Of a stretch of DNA of 64,000 nucleotides, positions 12,573-34,558 are shown piece after piece. The notes beneath the pieces are model-generated. The model worked only from the letters and a program-made list of their open reading frames with translations. It was not told where the DNA came from and did not search any database. How positions within the stretch are numbered: position 1 is the first letter of the stretch; the number at the start of each line of letters is the position of its first letter. The position numbers were made by a program, and so were the translations under genes. The DNA comes from Cymbomonas tetramitiformis. Lineage: Eukaryota > Chlorophyta > Pyramimonadophyceae > Pyramimonadales > Pyramimonadaceae. The stretch spans positions 1-64,000 of the forward strand of contig LGRX02033558.1 in assembly GCA_001247695.2 (NCBI GenBank), given 5' to 3'.

Positions 12573-12872
12573 GATGAAAATCCTATAGGTGGGTACGTCC
12601 GGGTAAGGTGGCGATGGCGCGGAGAGGAGGAACTCGCGGAAATGGTGATGGCAAATGCAGTCAAACCGTCCGTAACTGTGAAATCCCAATCGTAGAGATG
12701 CGGAAGTCGATAGATACGTTGCGCAAGAAGTCCGCGATAAAGAGTGATCAAGTCTAGTCAAAACGAAAATCCCGTGGACATCCAAAAAATCACGTAGGGT
12801 ACGCTGCAGCGATAAACACGATTACTCCGTAACGACGCGTGCCTCAACCGCGAGCCCTGGTAGCGCAACCAT

Positions 12873-13190
12873 CAAATGGGGCCCCAAAGCCCCAACGCCC
12901 CACCAAGCGGAGGCGTTTAGCCAATCATGCTACCAACCAAAAGTAGTGGAAGGTGCCTGGCGCACCATAACCTGTGAGATATATAGCTACAGCTATATGT
13001 TGAGTTACGGTCAGAATGCTTTCACTTTCGGTGTTTGCATAAGTGTAATAAACATAAGATAGTCTCGGCTTTGTGTCGGAACGAACCCTAAACCTGTGAC
13101 ACCCGTACTGTACCGAGTACTAGTACAGATAACAGGAAGCGACACACAAGACCCCCACTCGACATACAGTACCGAGTTTGGTGGACATTG
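12873..13190 (-). mobile_element. Probable 5' LTR of E3, diverged
   Basis: GGGGCCCCAAAGCCCCAACG through TTAGCCAATCATG resembles 6320-6363 and 63925-63968. ACCTGTGAGATATAT and the palindrome-like GTACTGTACCGAGTACTAGTAC resemble the LTR parts at 6400-6560 and 60940-60968. It is more diverged from the E3 3' LTR than expected of a single insertion, so either E3 is old or one LTR came from a related copy. The ends are approximate. Confidence 0.5.
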
Positions 13191-13952
13191 AAGGGTCGAG
13201 AGACCTCGCCCAACGGTCGCCAATATGGACACCAATACTTCATATATATCCAATAGTTGACTACCGTGGCAGTTATTATGAATGTTTCCGTGCTCATACA
13301 GATTCCATACTGCTAAAAACGAATTCGCCCTTAGGGTGGAGCATATATCGGTTAAATGCCCCCTTAGCCACTGGCAGCCGTCGAAATCGTACCGGTACAG
13401 TACCACCCATCAGATTCCAACAACAATGCTCGGTCGTGTCAAAGTCTCGATGAAGACGCACTTAGGCCCGTCGTTAAAACCTATCTATATGAAAACTCGA
13501 CGGGGGTGCCAATGAAAACATGGGAAAACTGGTTGTGGCCAATGTGACGATCGCCTTGGACGTCCAGAAATTCAGCATGTCACAACTTTTTTATCCCTCT
13601 GTAAGAGCATCCTCTGCTGGAATTGTCACTGTGACTAGTTCGTACAGTCTAGTGACATTCTTGTATGTCATCCTCTGTGGCTCGTTGTTTCACCGTCGGC
13701 AGCGTTCCCTCTCGTGAACTGCTGAGTTTCCAGCAGGTTATGGGACCACTTCACGCTTGCGTGTTGTGTATTTTAGCGTAGAACTTCATTTATTATCATC
13801 ATATTGTTGGAGAGTGTGTGTGCACGCCTTGTGGCTCGCTCAGATCAGATTCTTCGCTAAAGCTTGGAGCTCGCAGTATCCGAGAGATTTTAGACAAGTG
13901 GTACTCTACGATTTTCTTTGAGTGGATTCGTGACTTATTTCCGTTATATTTC

Positions 13953-14860
13953 ATGGATTCTTCCCAGATTTCTTCGAGCGAGGAGCTTCATGCTCTTTTG
14001 GAGTGTATTGATTCTGGTTTGGCGAGGGTTTCTACTTTTAAGCGGTCTCGGCTAATTTCTTTGTGCTCTTCTTTGAGCAAAGCTGGTTCGCATTTTCGTT
14101 CGCCGCAGATTCATCCGCAGCTTTTGACCGCAGATCCGCCGATTATTTTAGAGATCGTTGTGGCTGGGGAGACCACAGTTGGTGGTGCCTTGGTTGGAGG
14201 CCACTGTTTCCGGAGATTTTCGCGGTTCAAAATTGCAGCTTTGCGACGTGGGAGTTGGGGATTCGCCGGCAATTTTGGCAACCAAATCAGTCTCCACTCA
14301 GATTACGACCACTAGACCCTCGCCTAGTATTCCTAGGGCGACAGACAATGTGCCACAGGCCCCTCCTGTGCGCACAGAAGTTCACTTCGTTCACGCGCCT
14401 CCTCTTCCTGAGCCTCCCTATATGGGCTCTGGGGACCGGCATTTCGAGGAATTTGAAAGTAGTGAGGAGGATGAGTCGGAGTACTGTACCCCCTGGGTAT
14501 TACGATGATTGCAGCGACAGTTGTGTAGAGGGGTTGGGCCCCGCCGATGCTTTCGATATTTTGCACACACAACTGGAACGAGGCGACACTCTGGACACAG
14601 GTTTTCAGAGCGAATCTTATGGCGGCGTTTTAGAGCCCCCTGTTGGGGAGGAATTTTTCCCGCAGCATGAGTTTTCAGTTGGCGCTGTTTCTTTTGTAGA
14701 TGGGGCTAATCTTGAACACGAAAATTTATCGGAGAACGAGGAGTACACCGCTGAGGAGTGGGCGGCTTGGGATGCCGAGGCTCGTGATTCTTTCGACACT
14801 GGTGGTGCTGGATTTTATGATGAGAATGAATATTTTGAGGACTCTGCTTCCGACCGATGA
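13953..14860 (+). pseudogene. Unrecognised acidic protein of E4, frameshifted
   Basis: An ATG at 13953 opens MDSSQISSSEELHALLECID. The frame runs to 14315; homology with E2 passes to a second frame near 14240 (LATKSVSTQITTTR) and a third near 14490 (VPPGYYDDCSDSC), which ends at 14860. At least two frame breaks are needed to recover the full alignment with the E2 protein. Features shared with E2 are the EELHALL start, the GGAL/GGAM segment, the ITTTR motif and an Asp/Glu-rich tail. Function unknown. Confidence 0.6.
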
Positions 14861-15288
14861 TTATTATGATGGTTATTATTAATCTTAAACAGACAGGCGG
14901 TGTTTCCTTCGCAGTTTCTCCACCACTTGTTGTAGCTTTGGAATTGAGAATTTTTGTTGGAACTTTGACCACTAGCGGGCAGCTTTACTAATTAAGACGG
15001 ACAAGTTACGGCAGGAGACCTATTACAGTTCGCGGAAGTGACGGCTAAATCGACAGGTGGCGTTTGCTTCATGATTCTTCCGTAGCATGCCGACAGGCGA
15101 GATCTAAGGATTCACCCACCACTAGCTGGCAAGATGTTACCGGCCGATCAGATTTTATTTAGCGAGATCTCTAGCTTTAGCATGTATTATCTCATCGGCC
15201 ACTTGTGACTTTTCTAGCTTCTAGGCTTAACAATTTTGCATCTTACACTGTAAGCCTAGTAGCTAGGGTGGTGTGTGTCACAAGCTGT

Positions 15289-15308
15289 CCACCTCAGATG
15301 AGGTGGTG
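15289..15308 (+). other. Hairpin and GGTGGTG tract abutting E4 3' LTR
   Basis: CCACCTC-AGAT-GAGGTGG is a perfect 7-bp stem with a 4-base loop, ending two bases before the LTR start at 15309. It is the longest perfect stem of the four related sites. Confidence 0.6.
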
Positions 15309-15700
15309 TGCTGGAATTGTCATTGGGACTAGTTCGTACAGTCTAGTGTCATTCCCGTATGTCATCCTCTGTGGTCCGCTTGTGTCACCCCAAACTCAGT
15401 ATATATTCCTATTATCTGAGTTTAGCTTGGTTCGTTGTTTCACCGTCGGCAGCGTTCCCTTTCGTGAAGTGCTGAGTTTCTAGCATCCTCATGAGAACGT
15501 GAAAGAGAATCGTTTGACTTTTTACAGCATCTTTCTTGACTTTCTTGACTGACACGTATGCGGATCGGATTCGGTTATTTGATCGTCAATGCTTTATTGG
15601 TTGTTGATAACCGACTACACCGGCTAGCCAATTGCGTAAAGGTTCCTCTTTTCGCCCAAGGTCGGGTTTAAAACTCCAGGAGAGATCTTCTGAAGTCTTG

Positions 15701-16499: not shown

Positions 16500-17205
16500 G
16501 TGGAGGTCGCCGCTCCGGCGCGGGGGCGGTCGGGTGACCTCAAGACTTCAGTGAAGTTTGGATTGAGTTCAAGTTTGAGTTGTATAAACGATTTCAGTCT
16601 AGCAGGAGCGTGGGATGAAAGCAGCGTATCCTTTATCGCAGACGGTCCAGAGATTTCGCCGGAGAGCGATGTAGCGTTTGGATTAGTATTGTCATGCCAG
16701 CTTCGAGCTTGAGTTGACGTGATGCTGACGGTGACGGTGAGGGTCGTGCACGTTGACGTAAGGGTAATTTTTTTACAACGTTTTGCACTAGAGATGTAGA
16801 GAATAAGAATTAGGGATGTCCCGAGGATTTAGGTGGCAAGGCGCGGTAGTCCCGCATCCCACCTACTCTAACGCTTGTCCCCAGAGCTTATGGTCAAAAA
16901 TGCACGTTTAGGGTTTGTAACAATCTGGGGTCCATAAGTTCTCCGAGCCCAAAGACAAACGATGTAACGTGACCCTCGCGTTGTGACCGAAACACTAAAA
17001 TATATACAAGGGCTGGATGTATATATATATATATATATATTAGGTTTCAAGAAACTCAGGAAACATGCAGGTGTAAACCCTGAGTGCAGTCACAGTCTAA
17101 GATGATATGATAAAATAACTTAGGTGTTTTATTATCGGTCGGAATTGACGGCAGGCATAATGCAAGTGACAGGTGTGACACCACAGGGCGAGGGGTGACA
17201 CAAGA
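16500..17205. other. Non-coding spacer
   Basis: No gene is supported. The segment 16811-16862 (GGCAAGGCGCGGTAGTCCCG and flanks) matches 59771-59822, a fragment of the TRIM-like element near 59.7 kb. An (AT)n microsatellite occupies 17019-17041. The left target-site copy of G1 (AGAG) is at 17206-17209. Confidence 0.5.
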
Positions 17206-17209
17206 AGAG

Positions 17210-17425
17210 TGTCGCAAACGCGTGCATATGATGGTACAACCATTCTCGGAATCGAACGAACTTAACACTCGCGACTGGTCATAAGCATCATTAATATTCA
17301 CTGGTGCCGGTGACTGTTCGGGCAATTCTCAACACAGCATAAGATCGTAAAGCTACAAAATTTTTAAAATTCTGATGCCCTGATATCGAACGCTGAACTC
17401 TTACATGCAAGCCCAGATTCCAACA
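17210..17425 (-). repeat. 216-bp direct repeat, outer copy
   Basis: Identical over its length to 17953-18168. Read on the minus strand it begins TGTTGGAATCTGGG and ends GTTTGCGACA, so it has TG...CA ends like an LTR. It lies between the G1 3' LTR core and the flanking AGAG, and has no counterpart at the 5' end of G1. Confidence 0.9.
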
Positions 17426-17950
17426 TGAAAAAGTATGAAAACAGCAGCAAAATATATCCGTCAAAATTGATATTATAACCACAAAATACGAATTATTGTG
17501 TACAAAAGCTGTGAGCAGAACTGTCTTAGCACTCTAGCACTGGCACGCGAACAGCCACCTAGTACTTGCGAAGGCAAAACAATAATGAGTCCACTAGCCT
17601 GACCTCCGGTCAGAGCCTACTTATATCTCAATGCTCTGTCACATTTCCCAAAACTGTAACGGGTTCTAGCCCTTAAATCTTCATCTGGCCAATGGAAAGT
17701 CATTATTCTATGCCAGCTCTAACAATGTTACCGTTTACCGCATTCTGACTGACACGTCAGCGGCAAAGGAGTCACTGCCATCTTCATCTTATCATTCCCT
17801 GGTCATTTGATGGTGACCATATCTTCTCTGACAAGTCTGCATCTCACAGATGGCCATCTTCGCAAAGCCTGTCATGCTGTCACCACTGTCATGCGTGTCA
17901 CCAGCTGAACAAACCCGGCGCGGTACCATGAGAAGCCGGCGTTTGTTACA
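17426..17950 (-). mobile_element. G1 3' LTR core
   Basis: 525 bp, ~99% identical to 32917-33439. Minus-strand ends are TGTAACAAACGCC and CTTTTTCA. It includes GATATAAGTAGGC, a TATA-like box. Unusually, both sides are occupied by the 216-bp repeat. Confidence 0.9.
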
Positions 17951-17952
17951 GC

Positions 17953-18168
17953 TGTCGCAAACGCGTGCATATGATGGTACAACCATTCTCGGAATCGAAC
18001 GAACTTAACACTCGCGACTGGTCATAAGCATCATTAATATTCACTGGTGCCGGTGACTGTTCGGGCAATTCTCAACACAGCATAAGATCGTAAAGCTACA
18101 AAATTTTTAAAATTCTGATGCCCTGATATCGAACGCTGAACTCTTACATGCAAGCCCAGATTCCAACA
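17953..18168 (-). repeat. 216-bp direct repeat, inner copy
   Basis: Identical to 17210-17425. It is preceded on the minus strand by ACAGATGGGGGA (18169-18180), which looks like a polypurine tract. By that criterion the 3' LTR of G1 would begin here, at TGTTGGAATC, and not at the core. Confidence 0.9.
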
Positions 18169-18205
18169 TCCCCCATCTGTAGCTGCTGCGTGCAGTAGCA
18201 CAGAC

Positions 18206-20761
18206 TCAAATGTGGGCTTGTTCAGCATACTGGGTCGTATCACCATCTGCCATGAACTTGCCCAAACTGAAAGTGAACATACCAATGCCTTCACCTTCTC
18301 CACCCTGTAACATTCTGGCTCTGACCAGCGGATTCTTGAACACCAAGACCCACATACACCTGCGGCCAATAGGTCCATGTTCCAAATGCCCAATCACATG
18401 CAAGCGTCCTGTCTGACTCAATCGTCTGAAGTACGCAGCCCTGCTCTCGGTCATGTCTGTCAAGTAATAAGATGGAACATGGACACACGCCACCACACGA
18501 CTGGCCATTACTGCCAACGGAAACGCGATATCCAGCGCTGCGAACCAAGGTGAAGTCACCACTGCATCACAAACGCCATACTTCTCCTTCCATATGCGAT
18601 AGTTACCTGGCTGAAGTGCGTCATGCGCCTCAGACCAACCCAACTGAGAGTTCCAGTCATTGTTCATGAATCTCAACTGCGGCCATTGCTCCACCATTAC
18701 CTCACTGATGACCCCAGTGCCTGCCCATGGGTCCCACACGCCATCGACGGACTTCCAGTCCACCTCTGTCGCCAAACGCCTCACCTCAGAGGGCACTGTG
18801 ATGACCAGTTCAAGCCCCCACTGCAGCGCGCTAGCTTCTCTCACCTGAGCCTTAGTCATGTGTCTCAGCTCTCCTCGTCTTTCAACTTCTTCTTCAGCCA
18901 ACGCAGGCACAAGAGGTGCATCCCTCAGATGCCTTGCCATGGCCTTCTGTTCCCGATATTTCTTGCTCAGCACCGTGCGATGCCCCTCATTCCAGTGCCC
19001 TGGCATGAAGATCTGCACAGCCTCAGAGAGCTTGTCCTGCCTTCCCCAGTCAATCTGATCTGGCATGCCCAAGAATATGTCCTCCTCTTTCAACAGCATC
19101 TCCCTTGATGAGATGGCATGCCAAGGCTGAAACTTGTCTCCCTTCACCACCCGACGGGGACCCACGTCTGCTGGCAACAGGCGCATCTCCGCAGACAGCT
19201 TCTCATTCAATTGCTGCTCCTTCATGCCCAGTCTGTCCTCTAGGGCACCAGAGCTCTCATCTTTCTGGGTCTGCACCTCAGCGTTGGCGGCTTGCATCCT
19301 CGTGCCTGAGCACCTGGGACATAGCCACTCGCCTTCTGGTACTCCATCCAGTGCTGGGGTCAGACACCACAAGTGGTACCCCCTGTTGCATGCGTCGCAC
19401 AACAACATCTCTGCTTCCCCATCAGTCTTCCTGCAAACTTCACATGCTAGGTGCTTACTGGGAACGGCTGCACTGCAGTCATACTGGTCCTTCACCTGTA
19501 GGTGACATGGCGCGATGCTCTGCACGGTGCTCTTCTCTCTTAACTTGGTGGCGTCCTCAAGTACCACCACACCATCTCGCTGTATCTTGACCAGCTTCAG
19601 AATGGCAGATTTGGTCGCGACTTCCATGCCGCTGCGAGGCTTCTGCCTGATGTAGACGAAATTGCCCACCTTAAACTGGTGTGGACTAGGCTCATAGCCC
19701 CCACCTCTTCTCCCTTCATAATGTAATGTATCACGATGCTGTGCGACCTCCAGGCTGCAACCAGCGTGTACCATCAGTCGCCTCACCACCTGTGCTCTCT
19801 GGTGGAGGTCCTTGACTCTGGCATCCTTCTCATCTTCGACCTCAGCACCAAAATCTATGCTGGGCGCCTGTTTCAAATCAGGCGGCACTGCCGCCTCTTG
19901 GGCAAACAACATGGTGAACGGCGCCACCCCCGTGGACTCCTGGCGTGCTGCATTATAGCTCAGCACTAGTGGCCAGAGCTGCTCATCCCACTCATAATCG
20001 AGACCCTTCTCCAAGGCAAGCTTCTTAAAGCAGAACTTCATAGTGCGTACCACTCGCTCGGTCAGCCCATTGCCTTCTGGTGAGTCTGGCGAGGTGACTC
20101 GCCGGTCGATCAGGCAGTCTCTGCACAGCTGCTTGAACTCACCTTCAAACTCCTTACCTCCATCCACCAAGCATTCTGCTGGCGCACCAAACACAGCCAG
20201 GACATGACTGCGAAATGCAGCTGCGATGGTGCTCGCCTCCTTGTCGGGAATGGGCACGCAGACTATGAACCTGGTGTAGTGCTCGGTCATGATGAGCACT
20301 CGGTTGTTGCCAGACTTGGTCTCTCTCCTCGAAGGCCATGCCAAATCCAGCGACCAGCGATACATGAACGACACGATCTCAAGGGGGGACAAACATGCCT
20401 CCTCTCTCGCATAATGAGTCTTCACACGCTGACAGGTCTCACACTGAGTGACCACAGCCTCCACGTCTTTCTTCAAATCGGCCCACCAATGGCGCTGCCA
20501 CAAAAGATGCTGCGTCCGTCTTATGCCCCAATGTCCAGTTCTGGAGTGCTGGTATTCCTTAACCAACGCGAGACGGTCAGCAGGCTTAGGTATTCTCACC
20601 TCCTTGCCCGACATAGTGACCATGTAGATCTCGTCCGTGGCCTCGTCCCATCGATGTCGTGCTGCTCGCCTCCTTACTCGACGAACTTCCTCTTCGGGCA
20701 CCCTCACTCTACCATTGGACTTCAACCATCTGAGGCACCATGCATCATCGTGTACAATTCA
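18206..20761 (-). CDS. G1 ORF3: integrase, PHD finger and second SAM-methyltransferase-like domain
   Basis: The open frame extends from just after a stop at 20759-20761; the first usable codon near the ORF2 overlap is a TTG at 20725, so frameshift expression from ORF2 is likely. Residues below count from 20725 (839 residues). An HHCC zinc-binding region lies at ~50-100 (GHWG...CETCQ). The integrase core shows the D,D,E triad at LDLAW (~125), VDGGKEF (~190) and LTERVV (~225). A C4HC3 PHD finger spans ~428-470 (CEVCRKTDG, LLCDACNRGYH, WLCPRC), a histone-tail reader fold. Then comes a region with DPWAGTG (~663), a motif I of SAM-dependent amino-methyltransferases, and VVTSPWF (~725) where a catalytic SPPY/NPPF-type motif IV would sit. 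The assignment of this last domain is tentative; integrase and PHD are clear. Confidence 0.88.
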
Positions 20762-23700
20762 TCTCGATGCTTGTCACGCTCCACCTGCTGCTCGGCCACG
20801 CTGGCCATCAGGTCCTCGAATCTGGTGGTGCACGCCAACCTGGGGAGTCTCATCTCTGAATCTTTGGCAGGCGGACTCCAGGCAGGCACATCCACGCGCG
20901 CTGCTGGGGTTGCGCCCTCCTTCACGAAGTGGTTCTCATGCCTCTGACGATACTGCGCCATGGTGTAGAGCTGCCACTCTTTCTTCTTCTTCTTCTTGGT
21001 TCCAGCCTTCTGTCGCTGGGCTCCAATTCCTTCTGCACCTTTCTGCCCTTGCGAGCACATTATCCGCAGCTTCTCCTCCCAGTCACGATGGGTCATAGTC
21101 TTCGCCACCTGCTGGGTATATGCATTCGAATTCTCGACCCATTCCGCCAGCAAAGCTTGCCTCTGCTGAAGGTCCGACCTCTCGTGGTCTGCCCAGTTGT
21201 TGTCTACAGCGATGGGCTGTCCTGGGGAATTCTCTGCCTCTGGGGATTCCTCGCTGTGAGGGAGCCCCTTCCTGCTCGCTTCTGCGACCGCCATCAACAG
21301 CTCCATTGCCCTGCGATCCATGGCCAGGCCCAGAATGCTTGCCAATTCTACGTCGTTCAGGCCATCGGCCATGCGTAGCTCACTTGCGCTGTAGCCCATG
21401 GCTCGCGCCTTCTCGTCGAGGTTCACTTCTCGAGATTCTTCCTCGGCGTCTTCATCGTCCTGGTTGCGCACCACGGTGCCCATTCTCGCTCTCCTAAACG
21501 CTCTTGACCCTTGCGTCGCCATGATGGTGGGAAGTGCCCTCAATGGTTCTCCCACCACGTTCACCACGTAGTGAGGCGCGCGGTCTGTCCTTATTACTGG
21601 CCTGGGATGCCAGCCCTTACATATGATTGACGATACAATTCGTCCTTCCGGTCTCACCACTTTGCTCATGACGGAGCGAAACTGGTGGCTCTGGAACAAG
21701 TTGCTCCAATACGCTCGCAATCGGTGTGCGTAAGCGCCTGCTTGTGCTGCATCAAAGGACACTGGTCGACCAATGACGCTGGCGATGTACGGGAACACCT
21801 CGTCCCTGATCTTGGTTCCAGGTCTGTGTGACAACGGAGAAACGTTTTCCAGGATATAACCTGGAGGCCTCTGTCGCTGCAGCTGCTGGAGTGTGGACAG
21901 AAGCCTGACCACTTCATAAAACAATTTGCTGTGCCTGCCATCCAGGCCTGTGAGTGTTCCAGCAGGGGAAAGATCCTGGCATGGGAACCCACATACCATG
22001 ACCCACTGGCGTCCTTGAAGAGCTCCTGCTCGTATAAAGTCGGCACTGGTGGTCTCGCGCAGATCTTGGGGTAGAGCCCCAAACTCTATTGCACGGGGCG
22101 AAATGAGGTCAGGATATCGTCTTAGCAATGCCGTGCACCTGGCCCTGGCAACTGTTCGACTGCTCGGGGATATGTCCTGATACAGGTAGCGATCCACCTT
22201 CATCCCACTGCGGAGCAACATCTCTAGCCCAGCACAGAGGCCTCCACATGGCTCGTAGCACACCACGCCTTCCTCCCGAGCTTGCGAGAAGAACCGCCTG
22301 CCCAGCACCCTGGTGTCCACCTTCTCAGGCTTCAAGATGCGCTCGCCGTCAAAGTACTCATTGCTGTACACAGCAGGGCTTCCCTCGCCGTGCGTGCCTC
22401 GCGTAGGCCTGACCAGGCTCAACGCCTTCCAAGCTGCTCTGGCTAGCCTTCCAGAGTCGGTCACCAGCTCAGGCAAGTCAGTGTCGAACATGTCCCCATG
22501 ATTGCATTCTAATTCCTCGCGGTGGTGCAAGTCGAACAAACGATGCACTGGTCCCGTGCCCAGCTGCTCCATGGCAGCCATCTTGCAGTAGTTGGCAACC
22601 TGTACCTCTGGCGTGGCCTCTTCCCCTGGGAAAGCATCCCCAGCCAACATAAAGCACAAGTGGTCACAGAAGTCCTTCGTGTGAACTTCCCCCACGCCTG
22701 CGTGTAACGCAGTCACCTTCTCCCTCTCATGCCTCGCTCCAGTCTCATCTGTCGTGGACGGCAGTGGGTAGCGAGACGGCACGTCAGCGTTGCTGTTCTT
22801 GGCACCTGGACGATACTTCACAGTGAAGTCGAACTCCTGCAAACTGATTGCCCAGCGTAGGTGTTGCCCTTGGAGATCGGCCTTCTCCATCAGGGTGGTG
22901 AGCGGTGAGTGGTCGGTCACCAAAGTGAAGTGGACTCCATGCAAGTACTGCCTCAGCGTGCGCACTGCCCATACCACTGCGAGCATCTCCCCCTTGAAAC
23001 TGGCGTACTGTCTCTCCGTTTTACTCAGAGATCGGCTGATTGCCATACAAATGTACTCCTTCCCATCATCGTCCTTCTGGCCCAGCACTGCGCCAATGCC
23101 ATAGGTGCTCCAATCGGTGTACAATATGAGGGGTCTATCATAGTCGATAGGCCTCAGACACCTCCCAGAACAGAGAGCATCCTTCAATTCTTGAAGTGCT
23201 CGATCTTGCTCCTTCCCCCAGGCTCCCTTGACGTCAGTGACCTCCTTTTTAAGCAGGTCATTGAGAGGGCGGGCCATCTCAGAGTAGTTTGGCCCCCCTG
23301 GCTCACCCACCAAGCCCTTGTAGTAGTTCATCATGCCCAAGATCGAGCGGAGCCCAGTCTTGTCCTGGGGGCTTGGAAGCTCCTGGATGGCCTTGCATTT
23401 AGCTTCTTGCGCGCCAATGGAGTTGTGACCAATGCGATAGCCCAGAAAGTCCACCGTGGCTGCACCGAAGGTACTCTTGCCTGCATGCAAACGGATGCCA
23501 GCGTCCCCCAAGGTGCGAAGTACGTCCTCAACGTCCTTCAGATGCTGCTCAGGCGTGGAATCCGTGTAGACCACTACGTCGTCGACGTATGCCACCGTGC
23601 AATGCTGCAAGTGACGTAACTCGTAGTCCATGATTCTTACGAATGCAGAAGTAGCTCCAGCTGCACCGAAAGGCATCGAGGTGTACTGGTACAGCTGATT

Positions 23701-25404
23701 CTTCCACCAAAACGCCGTCTTGCTCCTGTCCTCTTCCGTGGCCATGGGAATCTGGTGGAAGGCTTTAGTGGCATCCAGCGTGGTCTTGAACTTGGCCTTC
23801 GCCACCTTCTGGTAGAGCTCCTCTGGTCGGTGTGGCAGCGTATTGTCTTTGAGGGAGTGCCGGTTGACACCCCTGAGGTCCACGCAGAACCTCGTCTGGG
23901 TCCACAGGCCAGTCTCGTGGTCTTTCTTGCCAGCTACGACCACGTTGCTCGCATGCCTGCAATGCTTGGCTGCTGGCTCTATGAAGCCATACTCCAAAAG
24001 TTCCTTGCAACGAATGTCGATGATTTCCTGCTCGCCCGGACTGTACTTCCTGGGTCTCTGGTAGGCGGCCTTGGATTCGTCTACAAACGGAATGGAGAAC
24101 GTGTTGTGCTCCGCCTTGCCCTTGTAGCCTGTCAGATCGTGAGGACTGTTGGCAAAGGTGGTCTTGCACCTGCGAAGGACATTCCGCATTTCCTCCCAGT
24201 GCTCCTCCTTGAAGTCAGGATGTCCTCCAAACGTGGCATTGAGCTCAGTGTCGAGCCACGCTGCCTCGTCCTTGGTCACTGTCGTGTCACCTAGAGGTTG
24301 AAGCTCGTCCAACACGGTGTACGGCAAGACCTCATCCTGCTCCGCGACGTTGGCCACCCAGCCCGGCTCCCATTGCCTTGAGGACTGCTGAGCCTCCCAA
24401 GAAGTGCAAGGGGACGAACCCCAGGCGCTGCGTGTGGGTGACGTGACATCACACGTAGGCGCACACTCGGTCATCTTGCCAGCGACCCACAAGATTCCGC
24501 ACAAAAGCAGAAAAAATCGCAAAATTCGATTGAAATGCACTGCGGCTACCGGCGAGTTCGAAGCGAAGAAGCACGCCATTACTCTCCACCCCCCGTGCGC
24601 CAAGCGAGTACTCCCACCAGCGGCGGTGGAGACCACGACTGCGAGGACAAGCGCCATGTAGGCGGCTTGCGCGATGCGATGAAGTCGGAGATTGCGCCGA
24701 AGCTGCGTCCAGCGCGCGGCGAAGCGAGGCTTGTCCAACCTGGCCGGCAAAGCGGGCAGGCACCCGCGGCCCAACAAGAAGATTTGGGACCAACGCAGGG
24801 ACGGAATAGTCCATCCACGGCCACGTCGAATGTGACCTGCGTCCAGCGGGTCGTGCACGACACAGGAGGCGTGGTACGCCACGTCCTCAGCGTAAATGCT
24901 GGTACAAACCCAAAGCCAGGCGAGGACCACGAGGAGGAGGGCAGCCGCACACTGCGACCAGCATGCCAAGGAAATGACCACCCCCCGAAGGGGCACCACC
25001 ATCCAACCTTCTGCACGAACACGGTGCACGCCAGCATAGATGCCCGTGGCGCGCACGATAAGCAACCCAACGTACCATACGCAGGCGAGAGCCCATAAGA
25101 CCCAAATGTCGTAATACGCACGACGGGGATAACGTCGAACAGACGACCACCATACTGGCAGCTGGCGCAAAAACGAGGCCACGCAGCGCCTCCACCAAAC
25201 TTGAAAAGGGCACCATGATAAGTGCCATGTCATCGCCTCCCACATCGCCCACACGGCGGCCATGGGAACGGGACCACGTCCCAGCCACCACCAAACCACT
25301 GCACTGCCTGCAAACGAGATACACGCCCGCAGGACACCTGGCCTCAAGTGGACCGCCTGTGCAGGCAGCCCACGGCCACAGCGTTGGTCGCTCACCAGGG
25401 CCAC
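20722..25404 (-). CDS. G1 ORF2: hydrophobic N-region, reverse transcriptase, RNase H, DNMT3-like cytosine methyltransferase
   Basis: 1,560 codons from a GTG at 25404; it overlaps ORF1 by 13 bases in the -1 frame, so ribosomal frameshifting is the likely route. Residues ~1-330 contain five or six hydrophobic segments (for example YDIWVLWALACVWYVGLLIV). Reverse transcriptase follows, with FCVDLRGVN, TSMPFGAAGA and the catalytic YVDDVVV (~605). RNase H shows TDWSTYGIGAVLG (~763), FKGEMLAVVWA (~803) and TDHSPL (~830). After a linker comes a C5-cytosine methyltransferase: motif I CYEPCGGLCAGLEMLL (~1050), the catalytic PCQ in GFPCQDLSPAG (~1140), ENV (~1186) and HRLRAYWSNL (~1228). VDRYLYQDI and KLFYEVVRLL resemble DNMT3 and not DNMT1. 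The Cys nucleophile and ENV Glu are present, so activity is plausible. Confidence 0.92.
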   Translation of the reverse strand: MALVSDQRCGRGLPAQAVHLRPGVLRACISFAGSAVVWWWLGRGPVPMAAVWAMWEAMTWHLSWCPFQVWWRRCVASFLRQLPVWWSSVRRYPRRAYYDIWVLWALACVWYVGLLIVRATGIYAGVHRVRAEGWMVVPLRGVVISLACWSQCAAALLLVVLAWLWVCTSIYAEDVAYHASCVVHDPLDAGHIRRGRGWTIPSLRWSQIFLLGRGCLPALPARLDKPRFAARWTQLRRNLRLHRIAQAAYMALVLAVVVSTAAGGSTRLAHGGWRVMACFFASNSPVAAVHFNRILRFFLLLCGILWVAGKMTECAPTCDVTSPTRSAWGSSPCTSWEAQQSSRQWEPGWVANVAEQDEVLPYTVLDELQPLGDTTVTKDEAAWLDTELNATFGGHPDFKEEHWEEMRNVLRRCKTTFANSPHDLTGYKGKAEHNTFSIPFVDESKAAYQRPRKYSPGEQEIIDIRCKELLEYGFIEPAAKHCRHASNVVVAGKKDHETGLWTQTRFCVDLRGVNRHSLKDNTLPHRPEELYQKVAKAKFKTTLDATKAFHQIPMATEEDRSKTAFWWKNQLYQYTSMPFGAAGATSAFVRIMDYELRHLQHCTVAYVDDVVVYTDSTPEQHLKDVEDVLRTLGDAGIRLHAGKSTFGAATVDFLGYRIGHNSIGAQEAKCKAIQELPSPQDKTGLRSILGMMNYYKGLVGEPGGPNYSEMARPLNDLLKKEVTDVKGAWGKEQDRALQELKDALCSGRCLRPIDYDRPLILYTDWSTYGIGAVLGQKDDDGKEYICMAISRSLSKTERQYASFKGEMLAVVWAVRTLRQYLHGVHFTLVTDHSPLTTLMEKADLQGQHLRWAISLQEFDFTVKYRPGAKNSNADVPSRYPLPSTTDETGARHEREKVTALHAGVGEVHTKDFCDHLCFMLAGDAFPGEEATPEVQVANYCKMAAMEQLGTGPVHRLFDLHHREELECNHGDMFDTDLPELVTDSGRLARAAWKALSLVRPTRGTHGEGSPAVYSNEYFDGERILKPEKVDTRVLGRRFFSQAREEGVVCYEPCGGLCAGLEMLLRSGMKVDRYLYQDISPSSRTVARARCTALLRRYPDLISPRAIEFGALPQDLRETTSADFIRAGALQGRQWVMVCGFPCQDLSPAGTLTGLDGRHSKLFYEVVRLLSTLQQLQRQRPPGYILENVSPLSHRPGTKIRDEVFPYIASVIGRPVSFDAAQAGAYAHRLRAYWSNLFQSHQFRSVMSKVVRPEGRIVSSIICKGWHPRPVIRTDRAPHYVVNVVGEPLRALPTIMATQGSRAFRRARMGTVVRNQDDEDAEEESREVNLDEKARAMGYSASELRMADGLNDVELASILGLAMDRRAMELLMAVAEASRKGLPHSEESPEAENSPGQPIAVDNNWADHERSDLQQRQALLAEWVENSNAYTQQVAKTMTHRDWEEKLRIMCSQGQKGAEGIGAQRQKAGTKKKKKKEWQLYTMAQYRQRHENHFVKEGATPAARVDVPAWSPPAKDSEMRLPRLACTTRFEDLMASVAEQQVERDKHRDELYTMMHGASDG

Positions 25405-28400
25405 CCGCCCGCTGTGCCCGGGGAGCCCTGCTGAAAATGCGTTTGTCTCTGCGCCTCACGCTGTTCGTCCGTATGGCGTTCGAACGCCTGCGTCACCTCG
25501 CTGCATATCGAAACAGCTGGAGAAGGAGGACACTGCGAGGTAAGACCGGCCGGCATCCTAGACGCCCTTGGCGCCTGGACGACATGGGTGGCAGTCCCAT
25601 GACGACCGACAGAAGGGGCAGACGAGCGCGCAGCACCGCCCGCGCCCAGCTGATGCTCATACGTTCGGCTGGAAGGCTGGCCCTGACGACGTGCAGGGGG
25701 GTCGCGAACCTCGTGCACATTCCTCCGCCAGATCGTATCCATGTGCTCGGGTCTCTCAGCCACGAGAGCCTGATGGGCGAGCGGTGGCGGCGGCGGCGGG
25801 AGACGAAGTGCCTCCAAGGCCCCCAGGGCGGGGAGCAACCACGGCGCGGCCGTTTCCCTGGTCCCCCACTGCAAGCCTGTGAACTTCCGGTCGTCCTGCT
25901 CGAAATACTCATTCGTGAACTCAGCGTGCCAAGGAAGACACCGCTCGTCCTCCAGAAAGATGTAGTACACGGGTGTGGCATTTGGGTGCGCCATGCAGCG
26001 CAGCACGTGTGCCGCCCCAATCTCCACGTAGCTACACAGCGAGCACGCGACGTTCCTTGCATGTCCCCCCGGCAGCCGGTGCCCTGAGTCACGGTGCGAC
26101 AGATCAGCCCAGGCTGAAATCATGGCCTCCAGGAGGCTGGAAGACGTAGTCTGTCCCCCAAGAGGGAGACGCCAGCCATTGTTCCCGCACGCGATGGTCT
26201 TGTTATGCTTCTTCTCAACTTTGCTGGTGATGCCCGGATGTCTCCGCAGCCTGAGACCCCGCTCCTTGTTGCACACGCCAAGCTGGTACATGACGCGCTG
26301 GCCTCTGCACCGGTCATAGAACGTTATGCCAAACCGTATCATAAAGACAGTGAGGTTGCGGCGATCCTTCAAGGCGCTAACTTCCGCCACGGACAGAAAT
26401 CTGCACACTGAACTGGCGGACGTGGTGGCCATTCGTGCGGCATCCCAATCTGACCCTGCTGGAGATGGAGGCGCCCTCACAGGGGACCGAGGCAGGCGAC
26501 CCTCCCGTGGTGGACTCGGAGGCGTAGGAGGCGGGCCCCCCGGGGAAAGTGATCGGGAATCACGTGGGACACGCATTGAGTTCGCCCACGAGCCAATATT
26601 GGTGAAGGCGGGCGATGCAGGGGGCGACACCAAGTCCTCGGGCCCATGGCTGTCGGATGAAGGCGACGGTGTACGGCAGTATGCGATGTGCGCAAAGCGC
26701 GATGGCGAGTGGTCACTGGACCTGGCTTGAGATGGCCCTGCGACAGCTCGGGATGGTCGTGCAATGTGCGACGAGCGAGGTGGCGAGTGGCTGCCGGACC
26801 TGGCTCGGGATGGTCCTGCGCCTGCGGCAGAAGCAGGTGGCTGCGCAGGGGCTCGCTTCGTGAGCCTCATGTTGACCATGTTGTTGGGCGGTGGTGGCCT
26901 ACGCTCCGCATCTGCCTCGAGTGCATCATGGCCCTGCTGCCTGGTGTTGGCCGCCTTGAGCATTTGCCTCATTTCCCCCAGGCGCACGTACTCCTGAGCA
27001 GCGGCATTCTCGGAGAATACCCTGCCAGTTCCCCCAATACCATCCCCCACCGGGTAGTACTTGGTGCTCGAACCCAGGGTGTCGAGCTCCAGAGGTGGCG
27101 CTTCGCTGCCACGTAAATTGTACTGTCGGAGGATGCCAACCGAGAGGGACTCCATGTCCACCGGGCAAAGGTATCTGAGCAGCTGGTACGTCCAGACACC
27201 AGTGCTCTCGTACCAATGAGGGAGCTGAAGCTCGTTCAGCAACTCCTCACTGTTGTACACGAGTGCATGATCCAGCGTGCAGCGCATCAGCTCGAGGTAC
27301 TGCGTGGCTGCGCTCGGTTGCACACAGAGGACGCGCTCCTTCAGATCCCACATGAGGGTGCCAGCGACCTCACCACTGGGGTACTGGAACAACTCCTGGA
27401 GTGTGTGCTGCAGTCGCTGGATTGGGTTGAGGCTATCGAACGCTCTGCCTTCCTCCCTGGGCTTGACGACGCCCTGCTTGTTGGCAGGGGACGGCACGTG
27501 TGTCATGTAGCTCCCCTTGAGCACCCAGAGGTCCTTCTCCTCATCGTGATCCAGCTTCTGGTCCACATACAGCCAGTTAGGGGGCATCAGTTGGTCCACC
27601 GTCACCCACTTCTGCTCGAGACAACGGACGAACTCCACGCAGACGTGTTCCTGGGAAGGTTTGGCTGGCATGTCCTCGGGGAGGTCTTGAAGGATGCGGC
27701 AAAGACGCGCAACATGGTGCCGGTCCAGATACAGTCTCTGATCCGCCCAGTTGTGGTCAAGACGAACGTCCAGAGACGGACGACCCCCAGCCACCTGGCC
27801 ATCAGTGACCCACTTCGTGCGTCCACCCACCCAGGGGTTCGGTTCTGCGTAAAGTTGTGTAAGCATGCGTTCCGACACTGCCCGTGCACTGGGCGTCAGC
27901 AACGCCAGGTGGCTCCTTCGACCTCCTTCAAGAGAACATGTGTGACTGCGACACCTCTCCTCGATCTCCGCGCGTGTGGCGACTCGTGGTCTAGGGCGCG
28001 CAGCAGGTGGCCCTGACGAAGGCGCTGGAGACCTCACTGGTGAATCATAGCCGTCATGGATGTGCTCAGACTGAATCCCAGAGGCAGCAAACCTCTCCTC
28101 CCTCGTGCTCAAGGGTGGGTGCCCTAGCCATTCGCACTCCGTCCCCTGCCCAAAGATCTCTGATTGCAAACACACCACTGGGTCCACCCTCCTGGGCTGG
28201 TGAGGACGCCTGGGTGATGTCATGTCGACCAACGGAAGAACCACCTGAGCATCCATGCCCAAAATCGTCGGCGCATGCGACACGGCCACGCAACTTCCAA
28301 GCTTGATGTCGATCATCAGGGAATTCTTCAGTGGCCCTGTGCCTATCAGCAGGTCCCAAGAGTTCTCGGGCTCGAAGGTCACGAAGGCGTACAGCCGGTG

Positions 28401-29525
28401 AAGCGTCATGTGTGGCGTGCCCGCAGCCAGTATGACATCCACGTAGCAATAATGCGTGAACTTCGTGGGGCTGTTGTCACACCTGGTGACCTTGGCGCCA
28501 GTGCTGGCCTCATAAACCGTGAGACCCAGCCGCCTTACGACAGCGATGGAGATGATGTTGCAGTTGGCGCCGGTGTCCATGAGGATTGCCCGGTATAGCA
28601 TAAGCTCACCACCAGATGACACCAACGCCAGCCCCTCATACAGGGTGGCATTCCTCAACTTGCAGATGGGCTGCACCTGAGCCATCAGTAGCACCTGCTC
28701 GTCGGTCAGGTGCTGCTTCATGATCTTTGCCCTCAGTGCGTCGTAGGCGAAGGTCTTGATGGTGCCAGCTCGTACATGTCCATGGTCACTGAAGTCAACC
28801 ACCCCCAGGTCGTCCACGCAGGCAGCGGCTGCACATTGAGCGGCGGCGCTGTCGACCACACCGTTGGGCATCTCGTCCAATGGCACCTCCTCGATCGCGC
28901 GGTGTCCTGCACCATCTGCCTCTCTTCTTACCCCTTGCGTCGCTGTGGCGTGCGTGTCCTCCAGCTCATGCTCGTTGACCTCGGTGGGTTGCTCGGTTGC
29001 ATCATTCGGACCCTTGCCCATAAGCTCCTCCAGCGCCAAAAGGTTCTCGATGTCCTTCGGGAGGTCGATGGCGTTCTGGGATATCAGGATGGCAGCAATC
29101 TGCGAGCAGGCGCGCACGGAGCTGCGAAGATTGGATGCCAACAGGTGGAACTTCCTGCTGAGTACGTTGGGAGGAACGGCTCTGGGCACCTGAGCGGCCC
29201 TGTCGAACTCCTCCGGCGTCTTGACCTGGAAGCTCTGCATCTTCTGGGTGCTGCCCAGGGCGACAGCGGCGCTGGCCTGGAGACTCGGTGCGTGACCGAT
29301 GCCACTACCATGACCATCTTCCAGCCCATCCTCAGCAGGGCAGTCCTGCTCATCCTCCTCGTATTCAGCCTGTTGGTTGAAGTGAGAGTCGTACTCAGTC
29401 TCCGCCTCACTGACCTCTGACCGGGCCTGTGCATCGGCGTCCTTGTCACCCTTCGTAGGTGCCCCTGTCTGGAGACCTGTCAGTTCTGCAGCGAGTTTCT
29501 CTTTAACCTCGGCACTGGCCGCCAC

Positions 29526-29556
<31 letters not shown>

Positions 29557-31145
29557 GGCTGCTTCTGCTTGGACTCAGGGAGCTTGAGCCACTCCTTGGT
29601 GGTGATCCCCATCTTGTGGTTATTGAAGCGGTGCGCGATGTTGTAGGCACGCATCTGGGCATTCTTGACCTCGTCCGGCCACTTGGAGTTCTGCCTGTCC
29701 TTGTGGAAGTTTGGCGGCACCCGGGCCTCACGACACCCCGTGTAGCAGCGCTCTGGAGAGTGGGGCAGGCGCGTGAAGCACCAATCACACTGGAACTTCT
29801 TCGAAGCATCAGGTGGTGGCACCTTGCTGTAAGTAGGCTTCTGACGCTCGGCATTGTTCGCTTCCCTCGCAGGCTTCTTGGCGTCGTCGCCACCATGCTG
29901 TGCTTGATCCTTCTTCTTGGGGTCCCTGCGTCTGTCCCCAGTCTTGGAGGCAGAACCCGAGCGCCTCATGGCTGACACTAGTGCAGCCAGGTCAAGCCCC
30001 ATCTGCCTGGCCTCGTAGCAGGAGTACACGCAGTTGAGCCTACGAACCAGCTCCTGCTGCAGTGTGAGAGCCCAAGCCTCCGCATCGTTCTTCAGCTTGT
30101 CCTGCACCTCCACGATCACCTCCAGGTCCTCCCATGTGACCTTGTTGGGGGCAGGATGGCTGACACGCAGCTGCTCGGACACGCGATCTCGGTATTCTTT
30201 GATGCGCAGGCCCTTGATGCATTCCTCGATGTCCCGCCTGACGACGGAGACCTCCACCCTCTTGCCGGTGTTGAGTGCTGCCTCCCTGCGACGACAGCTC
30301 TTCACGTAGGCGAGGCCGTCCTGCTCGTTGGTCTGCGGCTTGGCGATCAAGAGATCCTCCTTCTCTTTGGTGCCCTTCATCAAGAATTTAGCTTCAAGCT
30401 CTGCAATGAAAGCCCTCAAGGCCCAAAAGTAGTGAGAATCTTCAGTGCCATCTGGCCCCGTGAGACCCTTAGTGGAGGTTCCCTCGCCTGCCCACTCATC
30501 AGACTCCTCGCCATCAGCATCACCTTCCTCGAACACCTTACAAACTGCCCAGGTCGATCCTGGCGCCAGCTCATGAAAAGGAGGCTGCGCACAGCGCACT
30601 GATCCCTGGTAGGCGTCTCTCATGGTGAGATCCTTAAGGACATGACAAGCGTGTGAGGCCATGACGCCATCCTTCAGGTAGGCAGCGCACCACCAGTCAT
30701 AAGCGACTGAGGTGGAATGATCGTCCCCTGCTAGAAACGAGGGTAGGCTGTCCCACAACGATCTGAGGTCTGGTCCGGAGTCAGCGAAAGCCTTCTTCTG
30801 CTGCTGACTGAGCGCGTGGAAAGATGCTGACTTCATGTGCTTACGCTTCTTGGCCTCAAAAGCCCGCTGCACTTTCGCTACCATGTCAACGAAACGCCTA
30901 ATGAAGAGCGCTCTATCCTCATTCTTGCCACCAGTGTACTGGAGTTTGACATCCTCCTTGTCAAGTGCATGGCTATCCCTGTCATAGTAATCCATCTCGT
31001 CTACGTCGTCAAGCGCAAAGAGGAACTGATTCGCAGGCGCTGAGGCTGCTACTGCCGCTGCAAGTGCTGTCGCTGCGAGCGCTGTTGCTGCTGGTGATGG
31101 CGGTGCGGAGGGAGTGGTTTCTGAGCCCGACCCCTCTGCGCTCAT
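25392..31145 (-). CDS. G1 ORF1: Gag and aspartic protease with long unassigned C-terminal extension
   Basis: 1,917 codons from an ATG at 31145. The N-terminus is Ala/Ser-rich, followed by a helical Gag-like region. A zinc knuckle of the form C-x2-C-x5-H-x4-C lies at ~452 (CDWCFTRLPHSPERC). A polyglutamine tract coded by CAG repeats follows (~530-540). The retroviral-type protease shows MDTGANCNIIS (~857) and the flap-side partner DLLIGTG (~931). Residues ~1100-1917 are unusual for Gag-Pol: a conserved-looking globular stretch, a Ser/Pro/Arg-rich linker, and a Cys/His-containing segment (ACSLCSYVEIGAAHVLRC) that may bind zinc. I cannot assign a function to this extension. The stop at 25392 is read past in the -1 frame to make ORF2. 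Confidence 0.88.
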
Positions 31146-32916
31146 ATATTCCGTGTCAAGGTCCTGACTGACCCGCTCTCGCGCCAGTCGCCGTGCCTCA
31201 CGTTCTCTGGACTGGGCAGAGGCAGCGCTTGGCTCTGCCTCACCCTCCGTGGTAAAGTACTGTGTTACTGCTCAGCTAATGGGACCAAGGAAGAGTCCCC
31301 TCTCTCAGCGCAAAGCTCGTTCACCAGTAGACTGGAGGCTTGATTCAGACTGGCTTAGGCCAGTGCACTGAGTGCTCCTGGATTCACCTCACTGAACAAG
31401 CGGAAGAACAAAACGCGTGCGGCCAGCGAACGCCTAAAGGTCCAGCACTGTGCTTCAGCGCTCTGAATCCGCAGCAGATGCAGAATATTTGTGCGAGTAG
31501 GACTTAAAGCTGGGCCAGTGTGCTGAACACTTCTGGATTAGCTGGGCCAGAGTTCATCAGGAGCACAGTGAATGAAAATGAGGGCAACTTCACGGCACCA
31601 AGAATAGTACTGATACGCAGCGGTGTGAGCTAGGCCAGTGTGCCGAGCACTCCTGGATTCACAACACCACTGCTAATCAAGGGTACCATAGCTGTCATGG
31701 AAGCTCACTCCCCAGTCCAGTAAGCACGTACAAGGTCGCTGGCAGAGTTGGGAGCTAAGCCAGTGTGCTGAGCACCCCTGGATTCGCAGCACCACTGCTG
31801 ATTCAGAAGGTGACCGGTGATATGAGGGCCTCACCGGCTGACCAATATCGTAGAAAAGATAGAAGAATTCTCCCACACATTATGATAAAGCACTAGAATG
31901 TCACTCCAGTGGTAAGCAGCACTCCAAGCTGGTCAAGTAATTAACTCTGAATCCACCAGATAACTGTATCACACCAGTGAATATTGCTTAAAAAGACCAC
32001 TCAGTTGTCGCCTTCAGGGCTGATGTTGCTGTCAGTCCTCTGGCAAGCTTTTCCCTACTTCAGGCTTAGGCCAGTACACCAGGGGTGTCCCTGGATTAAC
32101 CGTCAGACAAGGTGGAGCTGTCCAAGAAACCGTAAGTTGCAGTTCCAAACATAGAGCAGTGACTCACTGCTGATCCGCTTCTTTGCTGGTAAGTAAAAGC
32201 AGATGCCGCCGCTAATTAGCTCCTAGGCCAAGCACCCCTGCCTTTCAGCTAGGCCAGTACACCAGGGGTGTCCCTGGATTCACCTCAGACAAGGTGGCCA
32301 GCTGGAGAACCCACTGGAAGGTAGGTCATCAAGGTGCACATTAACTGCTGATCCACTCTTAGCCGGTAAGTCCAGGCAGATGCCGCTGCTGATTAGCTTC
32401 CAGGTGACACACACTTACTTTTCAGTTAAGCCAGTGCACCATGGGTGCCCCTGGATTCACTTCAAACAAGGTGGCCAGCTCAAGGAACCACTGAGAGGTG
32501 CTCATCCAGGTGTACATTCACTGCTGATTGACTCTGTCGCCGCCGCCGCCCAAGCTCATGCCGTGCTGATTAGCTCAAAACTGAAGAACACTTGTCAGCA
32601 GTTAGGCCAGTGCACCAGGGGTGCCCCTGGATTCACTGTAGAACAAGGTGCTGAGCATATCACCAGATAGAAGGAGGCCGCTCATGACTAGTGAATTCAA
32701 AGCTGATCCGTTGCCGCCGTAGCTGATAGCTCTTTCAGTGCAAGTACCACCAAGTTCAGGGAAGAAGAAGGGTCCGCCAGTGCACCGTGGGTGCCCCTGG
32801 AGTCGCCTGACTTCCGAATCCGCTCTTGCAAACTGCTGCTGACTTCTCGCCAAAGGGCCTTTACTTCTGGATTAACACTGAAATAAAAAGCCGCTCCGCG
32901 CAGGACATTATTGTTT
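31146..32916 (-). repeat. G1 5' leader with palindrome-bearing tandem repeats
   Basis: No ORF is supported. Plus-strand copies of a motif near CCAGTGCACCAGGGGTGCC followed by CCTGGATTC start at about 32065, 32248, 32424, 32601 and 32775, a period of 174-183 bp. More diverged copies lie at about 31353, 31517, 31632 and 31757. The core CCAGGGGTGCCCCTGG is self-complementary. Between the cores, blocks such as ACAAGGTGGCCAGCT and CTGCTGATTAGCT also recur. Confidence 0.8.
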
Positions 32917-33439
32917 TGAAAAAGTATGAAAACAGCAGCAAAATATATCCGTCAAAATTGATATTATAACCACAAAATACGAATTATTGTGTACAAAAGC
33001 TGTGAGCAGAACTGTTTTAGCACTCTAGCACTGGCACGCGAACAGCCACCTAGTACTTGCGAAGGCAAAACAATAATGAGTCCACACCTGACCTCCGGTC
33101 AGAGCCTACTTATATCTCAATGCTCTGTCACATTTCCCAAAACTGTAACGGGTTCTAGCCCTTAAATCTTCATCTGGTCAATGGAAAGTCATTATTCCAT
33201 GCCAGCTCTAACAATGTTACCGTTTACCGCATTCTGACTGACACGTCAGCGGCAAAGGAGTCACTGCCATCTTCATCTTATCATTCCCTGGTCATTTGAT
33301 GGTGACCATATCTTCTCTGACAAGTCTGCATCTCACAGATGGTCATCTTCGCAAAGCCTGTCATGCTGTCACCACTGTCATGCGTGTCACCAGCTGAACA
33401 AACCCGGCGCGGTACCATGAGAAGCCGGCGTTTGTTACA
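32917..33439 (-). mobile_element. G1 5' LTR
   Basis: 523 bp with TG...CA ends on the minus strand. GATATAAGTAGGC (plus-strand 33105-33119) is the likely core promoter for G1 transcription, pointing left into the leader and ORF1. Compared with the 3' copy there are a few substitutions and a 2-bp indel near the shared GAGTCCAC segment. Unlike the 3' end, it has no 216-bp repeat beside it. Confidence 0.9.
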
Positions 33440-33467
33440 AGAGACAGTCACCCGGGAGTCTGTCTAT

Positions 33468-34558
33468 GAGGTGGTGTCTCCATGACACCACCTCACCCCG
33501 AAGGCGTGAGGTGCCACGCGTGCAAGCTAGCCAGGCCGGGTCTAACATCCTACGGTTGGCCACGAAGGCAAAACCCTAAAAAGAAAACAAGCATATTTTG
33601 AGACCCTAAGAGGTCTTTTTCAACCCAGCTAGTGTGGCTCCGCCGCGCTGGTCTCTAGAACTTCGACGTGTCGGTCTGTCGCGTTTTTTTATCACGGCGA
33701 TTTGATTGGTTGGAAAATTCTGAAAACCGACATCGCGACATGCGACAGGGTCTACAATATCTTTTTTGGCTCTGTGACGTTATCTCTGCATGTCGTCGAA
33801 TTCGTAAGATAGTGTAGACCCAAAAAAGATATTGTAGACCCCTTTTGTCTCGGTTTTGTCGCTTTGTGTCGCGTGAATTTGAAATCTATCGTTAGATCCA
33901 AAAAACTTTAAGGGCGCACAGGCATTTCATGTCGGCCATGTCGGGCTCGCATGCCGGTTTCGTTCCGGTTCCACGTAGTAGGCAAAAATAAGACATGACC
34001 ACGTAGGCAACGCAAATTAATTAGGTCAAACGTTTGACCTAATTAACACTGTGCAGCAGCGAGGGTAGATTCGTGAAGAGATTGAAGTATTCGCGATATA
34101 TTAGAAGGAAATAATGTTCAATAGCAGGTATCATGAATGATACGAAGCATCCCCGCACATATTTGGTGACTGGAGGTAGATCTCGGATTCTCCCGCCGCT
34201 TCGTGTGGCGGAAGCGGGAATGGCAAAAGCGGAAAACCGCATCCGCAAAAACGGCATTTCCTTCGGTATCCTGCCGAAGGGAAAGCTAAGAAATACTAAT
34301 AACAACAACGGAGACATATTTTCAACGTTGTATGTGCGCATCTGGGTTTCATTATAGGTCAGTTGGTTCACCCGCTTCGAGCCCCGCGGCGGAAACGCGG
34401 ACGCAGTTGACATTCACGTTTCCGCCAAAGGTGACAGTGCACTGTCAGATGCGCATAATGGCTTTCTTAAGTTCACATGATATGCATGATATGCTCATGC
34501 TGTGCAGTATGAGTCCTTGTTGGGCGTGATTCGAGATGGCTGGCTCGAATCACGCCCA
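33468..34558. repeat. Cluster of perfect palindromes and hairpins
   Basis: Five strong self-complementary sites lie within 1.1 kb. (1) 33468-33494, 11-bp stem with 5-base loop. (2) 33748-33769 with 33820-33841, 22-bp perfect inverted repeat around 50 bases. (3) 34017-34046, a perfect 30-bp palindrome with no loop, centred on CAAACGTTTG. (4) 34388-34426, 10-bp stem; and 34432-34447, TGACAGTGCACTGTCA. (5) 34521-34558, 15-bp stem with an 8-base loop. ORFs here are short and unrecognised. It could be one or more non-autonomous DNA transposons. Confidence 0.65.

Follow-up and report, generated by a model that had tools for sequence, protein, structure and literature searches.

In Klebsormidium nitens, KnitGypsy-Dnmt3 carries a Dnmt3-type DNA methyltransferase (DNMT) within a Gypsy Pol, a domain under purifying selection (de Mendoza et al. 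2018; PMC5890265), and the legend of Fig. 4c in that paper describes its repeats as DIRS-like and its domains as Gypsy-like. The passages of the main text that mention adenine concern DIRS elements and not KnitGypsy-Dnmt3. SymbioDIRS-Dnmt3, described in the same paper, also has a Dnmt3-type DNMT in Pol, with split repeats in the order A-coding-B-A-B. Its catalytic domains methylate CG in yeast, whereas the KnitGypsy and LINE domains gave no methylation, a result called inconclusive there, and self-methylation of the retrotranscribed complementary DNA (cDNA) was proposed. A methyltransferase domain in Pol has been described for DIRS-like elements (PMC2685390), and split direct repeats of the plan A1-[ORFs]-B1A2B2 for Ngaro elements (PMC8547959). 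In Cymbomonas tetramitiformis, long terminal repeat (LTR) elements at 15.3% and chromoviral pol genes have been reported (PMC10675990), as have very high-coverage scaffolds with homology to, among others, cytosine DNA methyltransferase (PMC5741210). Here we describe a single Ty3/Gypsy-type retroelement that spans positions 17210-33439 on the minus strand of a 64,000-nucleotide stretch of the C. tetramitiformis genome (contig LGRX02033558.1; "the window" is this whole stretch). Its Pol runs in the order reverse transcriptase (RT), RNase H, DNMT3-like C5-methyltransferase, DDE integrase, PHD finger and a C-terminal domain (the tail) with a predicted S-adenosylmethionine (SAM)-methyltransferase fold.

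Likened by description, the Cymbomonas element shares Gypsy domains, a Dnmt3 in Pol and DIRS-like repeats with KnitGypsy-Dnmt3. It appears to differ in having a PHD finger, a term absent from the main text of PMC5890265, and it belongs to a different host lineage; no match labelled Klebsormidium was present among the 58 rows of relatives. With SymbioDIRS-Dnmt3 it shares the Dnmt3-type DNMT in Pol and the split repeats, but SymbioDIRS-Dnmt3 has a tyrosine recombinase whereas the Cymbomonas element has a DDE integrase and 4-bp target duplications. Its repeat plan equals that of Ngaro, yet Ngaro also has a tyrosine recombinase and not an integrase. Chromoviruses carry a chromatin reader C-terminal to the integrase, and this arrangement is found here as well, with a PHD finger instead of a chromodomain and with two methyltransferase-type domains. 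The integrase of Ginger1 elements is likewise Gypsy-like, and at least one Ginger1 family has a PHD C-terminal to it (PMC2836005); unlike the Cymbomonas element, Ginger1 elements are DNA transposons, and the word methyltransferase does not occur in the text of that paper. A Gypsy element with a PHD finger and a second methyltransferase was not found described in the titles and abstract openings searched, which covered few subscription papers and no bioRxiv preprints. An earlier reading of this DNA from its letters (the original prediction) knew of no single Ty3/Gypsy element with a reader and two different writer-type domains. The design was anticipated in part: a DNMT3-bearing Gypsy element with DIRS-like repeats was already published in 2018 (PMC5890265), and it is the PHD finger and the second methyltransferase-fold domain on the integrase that look new.

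The element is assigned to Ty3/Gypsy by an RT and RNase H that are Ty3-related and lie upstream of an H2C2 and DDE integrase. In Pfam searches, open reading frame (ORF) 2 matched RVT_1, two RNase H models and C5 DNA_methylase (PF00145, E 2.2e-9), and ORF3 matched Integrase_H2C2, PHD (PF00628, E 5.9e-12) and rve (3.4e-7, slightly below the curated cut-off). Among solved structures, Ty3 Pol came closest to the RT-RNase H part (E 6.7e-67), and the YVDD motif of the RT and the D, D and E residues of the integrase could be read by eye in the translation. No tyrosine recombinase was matched at E<=1 in the three ORFs, the rve integrase being found instead. The three ORFs lie on the minus strand where the original prediction had placed them, and its separation of ORF2 from ORF3 had to be given up: they are one Pol frame that is split in the window copy, and ORF3 has no ATG. 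Relatives such as P0001 and P0014 have an uninterrupted Pol. The residues immediately upstream of ORF3, read in its frame, align with this Pol, and the ORF2 frame matches it up to that same point, so the natural unit is RT-RNase H-DNMT-integrase-PHD-tail. Recoding, a sequencing error or a lesion may account for the change of frame between DNMT and integrase. Used as queries, the three ORFs revealed no second copy of the element in the 64-kb window.

The predicted DNMT and PHD domains were both recovered. In a search with a 17-sequence profile of the DNMT domain, DNMT3A was the best match among methyltransferases (2.4e-10) and the first 27 methyltransferase rows were DNMT3 chains; the catalytic PCQ and ENV and a motif VIII-like AHRLR are intact in the window copy. 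By this profile comparison, the domain is a C5-methyltransferase nearest to DNMT3 with the catalytic Cys and ENV in place. The C4HC3 zinc-ligand pattern of the PHD finger is complete in 30 of 85 protein records, the window ORF3 included, many of these records being fragments. Its sequence is closest to those of CHD4, KDM5-type, WSTF, ATXR5 and BAZ2 proteins, several of which are readers of unmodified H3K4.

The element is abundant and has many near-intact copies. ORF3 was searched against the genome (25745 contigs, 851.7 Mb); of the 12966 first-look candidates the best 54 were scored, a sample from which the share of decayed copies is not derivable. ORF3 is covered in every one of the 54 at 98-100% identity (in one, to residue 837), 50 have no internal stop and 10 hold one open frame of at least 2413 aa. 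The genome holding the window also encodes P0001, a member of another subfamily, at 100%. When it was used as the query, 34 of 13048 candidates were scored, and the stretch from DNMT through integrase and PHD to the tail was covered nearly end to end in 30 of the 36 resulting rows, with identities of 94-100% (3 rows), 69% (2) and 67% (25). The domain order is common to at least four subfamilies, the window's own group included; members of the other groups are distinct from the window copy and from each other. Among the 85 protein records, three of which are pieces of the window, a DNMT motif and a tail match occur together in six: both are complete in P0001, the tail is partial in four, and P0081 has a degenerate tail. 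Other relatives show one half only, many of them being fragments or lying on short contigs, and linkage of DNMT and tail is better supported by the genome search in which P0001 was the query.

Organism-labelled protein matches are nearly all from C. tetramitiformis, the others being a protein of Chlamydomonas eustigma and one whose identifier is of the Chromochloris style, and integrase, PHD and tail are retained in distant metagenome relatives. In an integrase tree, a distant clade mixes rows with a DNMT and rows with a tail; this clade has many long, open branches, and the tree was not relied on. No relative turned up when viral contigs were scanned with P0018, ORF3 and the tail alignment, nor in one scan of genome contigs. 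A scan of viral contigs with the DNMT alignment gave 131 relatives, of which 80 were kept, with identities of 23-56% across parts of the DNMT domain; the RT part and ORF3 of the window had no tblastn match in these 80 loci.

The DNMT, integrase, PHD and tail are under purifying selection, with the tail no less conserved than the integrase. Over 20 loci including the window, the ratio of nonsynonymous to synonymous rates (dN/dS) was 0.05 in the integrase, 0.06 in the PHD, 0.16 in the linker, 0.00 in the methyltransferase core and 0.07 in the part that precedes it. ORF3 protein score was the basis on which these copies were selected, and this lowers dN across ORF3. The contrast between domains stands despite this selection: the core has 1 nonsynonymous versus 32 synonymous variants over 152 codons and differs from the linker (Fisher test, p 7e-6) and from the integrase (p 0.02). 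Across the four subfamilies (five sequences), dN was 0.15-0.18 in the core, 0.17-0.20 in the integrase and 0.52-0.68 in the linker, with dS between subfamilies of at least 1.1 and often saturated. Within one subfamily, L110 and L111 (core dS 0.26) gave a core dN/dS of 0.04. Identity to eight distant relatives was 37-46% in the core, 37-43% in the integrase core and 16-26% in the linker. The DNMT values of the 20-locus run had out-of-frame parts mixed in and were left unused. In one run ungapped columns produced spurious DNMT and post-DNMT values, and a recomputation that took only the longest stretch per locus (L090 yielded none) stands in their place.

The tail of ORF3 had been called amino-methyltransferase-like, which holds for its fold and motif order but not for the form of its motif IV. 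AlphaFold models the tail as a SAM-methyltransferase fold from an input alignment of 15 sequences. The nearest folds are adenine-N6 enzymes (HsdM, M.TaqI, METTL5), with KsgA also close. In the model, motif I comes after the first strand and TSPWF after the strand at 227-230, as in a class I SAM fold with the amino-methyltransferase motif order I to IV. The canonical motif IV of these enzymes is (N/D/S)PP(Y/F/W), and the tail has SP[WYF]F in all 16 alignment rows; we know of no canonical form that it fits. DPWAGTG and TSPWF are retained in 20 of 20 loci. Motif I is degenerate in P0033, and P0081 (Chlamydomonas eustigma; DNMT, part of the integrase, and tail) has lost motifs I and IV and kept the fold signature. 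The window tail had no Pfam match at E<=1 and none in NCBIfam, and no Dam-type match (PF05869) turned up in Pfam and other profile searches; a PHROG match at E 0.2 was disregarded. The original prediction had named two outcomes that would speak against it, a tail without a SAM fold and other copies without these domains, and neither was found, in the AlphaFold model or in the 54 scored copies. The tail is a candidate DNA amino-methyltransferase that might modify adenine N6 or cytosine N4.

Two other roles for the tail have to be weighed. It could have retained the fold without catalysis, as a nucleic-acid-binding or structural module of the integrase, and the non-canonical motif IV and the state of P0081 would fit such a role. 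We regard this as rather unlikely, given that motif I follows DP[WF][AS]G in all rows but one of the 16, that the S, P and F of motif IV are invariant, and that the near-absence of nonsynonymous variants in the core seems to go beyond what a mere binding module needs. Less likely again is an active methyltransferase whose substrate is RNA (element RNA, primer or rRNA) or protein and not DNA. METTL5 and KsgA are close in fold, and the substrate is not readable from a fold; however, M.TaqI and type I HsdM are at least equally close, the weak sequence links of the tail lead to DNA methyltransferases, and the tail is fused to an integrase and a PHD finger, which act on DNA and chromatin.

The predicted boundaries of the element were exact, with a 4-bp duplication (CTCT on the coding strand) directly outside both. 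The ends themselves are not ordinary LTRs; they are split direct repeats with the plan B-ORFs-A-GC-B-A, in which a lone B (522-524 nt) stands at the 5' end and A-GC-B-A at the 3' end. The element has the short, fixed-length target duplication of Ty3/Gypsy elements and lacks their identical LTRs at both ends; it has the split direct repeats of the DIRS order and lacks its tyrosine recombinase. Of 20 loci, 15 have all of A-GC-B-A, 4 just A and 1 A-B, and the flanks differ between loci. The 5' ends were sought for 11 copies; two of these stretches do not exist, and among the nine obtained four have a 5' B and five have none. All five copies read at both ends, the window included, start with B, finish with A and have a 4-bp duplication (TAGG, CACA, ACGT, GTGG and CTCT). 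Recombination that duplicated the 3' end of a conventional LTR element is a very improbable origin of this plan: the inner A does sit where a Gypsy 3' untranslated region would, but in these five copies the duplication adjoins the B start and the A end, and the two termini are near-inverted (TGTAACAAACGC and TGTCGCAAACGC). The absence of the GC from both termini would be expected if the integrase trims ends copied from the inner junction. By eye, the sequence following B (AAAACAATAATGTCC...) does not start with TGG, as a tRNA primer-binding site would. A polypurine-like GATGGGGG at 18170-18177 (minus strand) immediately precedes the inner A and not B, and is also present in other copies. A chance fusion or local rearrangement in a single copy, for which the split frame of the window copy might be cited, is rejected as close to impossible by the ORF3 domains in every scored copy, the full order in four subfamilies, integrase-PHD-tail in distant relatives, and the A-GC-B-A ends with their different flanks.

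We consider it reasonably probable that this abundant Ty3/Gypsy-type retrotransposon with split direct repeats works as follows. The inner A-GC-B junction would template both termini during reverse transcription, and the integrase would trim the GC. The DNMT3-like domain would deposit 5-methylcytosine (5mC) on new cDNA or target chromatin, as has been proposed for Symbiodinium elements, and the PHD finger would steer the integration complex to nucleosomes like the chromodomains of chromoviruses. In the least certain step, the tail, joined to integrase and PHD, may methylate adenine N6 or cytosine N4 in the cDNA, the element's RNA or the target. Several points weigh against this account: the motif IV that fits no known canonical form, the degenerate motif I of P0033, the loss of motifs I and IV from P0081, the shallow alignment behind the model, the choice of loci by ORF3 score, a histone specificity of the PHD finger that is suggested by resemblance alone, and replication via the inner junction, which we infer. 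It is possible, though doubtful, that Pol goes further and forms a self-contained epigenetic kit, supplying DNMT3-type 5mC, a second mark (N6-methyladenine or N4-methylcytosine) and PHD-based site choice, with copies that arrive doubly marked; the integrase-linked methyltransferase would then be a new motif IV class, an idea of the same tentative standing. That the element marks its own copies with two modifications, as was suggested from the letters of the DNA, is a hypothesis.

Table 1. Features of the retroelement in the window (positions in the 64,000-nucleotide stretch).
Feature	Positions	Strand	Remarks
Target-site duplication, 3' side (AGAG on +, CTCT on coding strand)	17206..17209	.	
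Repeat A, terminal copy = element 3' end, ...GCGTTTGCGACA	17210..17426	-	100% identical to inner A, 217 nt
Repeat B, inner copy, starts TGTAACAAACGC	17427..17950	-	518/524 identical to 5' B
GC dinucleotide at A-B junction (CA-GC-TG), absent at both termini	17951..17952	-	
Repeat A, inner copy	17953..18169	-	
ORF3: integrase, PHD, second methyltransferase-like domain (Pol, second half), no ATG	18206..20725	-	
Second SAM-methyltransferase-fold domain, ORF3 residues 651-802	18320..18775	-	
Motif IV-like TSPWF	18542..18556	-	SP[WYF]F in 16/16 alignment rows
Motif I DPWAGTG	18713..18733	-	DP[WF][AS]G in 15/16 alignment rows
PHD finger C4HC3, ORF3 residues 428-472	19310..19444	-	
Integrase: H2C2 zinc binding, DDE core, C-terminal part	19526..20563	-	
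ORF2: RT, RNase H, DNMT3-like domain (Pol, first half)	20722..25404	-	
DNMT3-like C5-cytosine methyltransferase domain; PCQ, ENV, AHRLR intact	21268..22287	-	
RT (YVDD) and RNase H, Ty3-like	22738..24039	-	
ORF1: Gag-like	25392..31145	-	ORF listing, Pfam
5' leader with nine copies of covarying hairpin	31360..32800	-	
Repeat B, 5' terminal copy, no A after	32917..33439	-	likewise in 4 other copies
Target-site duplication, 5' side	33440..33443	.	

In Pfam searches ORF1 gave only a weak aspartic protease match (MDTGANC, about 28470-28586). The roughly 1000 residues that follow it (25395-28400, minus strand) have no known domain and recur, by eye, in the relative P0004. Residues 1 to about 430 of ORF2, before the RT (24100-25404, minus strand), are partly hydrophobic, and the relatives P0055 and P0066 likewise start with hydrophobic stretches when read by eye.

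In the leader hairpin (CCAG..GCACC...GGTGC.CTGG), each of the 81 cells of the nine pairs holds a standard pair, and in four of the nine both sides vary. Compared with 500 shuffles, the percentage paired, the number of changed cells and the covariation score were beyond chance (0/500 each), and the number of pairs changed on both sides (102/500) and of further pair types (499/500) was not. Five hairpin units of the long type recur in 4 of 4 other leaders, the short type being outside the search pattern; two of 11 pattern matches in the leader were discarded as unrelated. A function in packaging or dimerisation would be a guess. At the gathering threshold, Rfam gave no match for positions 17000-33600, and no tRNA was found in the window. 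Elsewhere in the window, an ORF at 57060-58253 (minus strand) encodes an Ion_trans domain (PF00520, E 1.7e-30) and is likely an exon of a host channel gene, minisatellite arrays with units of about 30-93 bp are numerous at 40600-53400, and short dispersed repeats (D13, D15, D16) at 6752-15374 hint at additional mobile elements.

The data presented here extend the capture of a DNMT3 by Gypsy elements, described in one streptophyte alga, to a prasinophyte, where a similar design is abundant, and to metagenome DNA. The joint occurrence of split direct repeats, a DDE integrase and target duplications in one element bears on how such ends arise. With its many near-intact copies, C. tetramitiformis is an alga suited to a long-read methylome test of whether such elements mark themselves with one or two DNA modifications.

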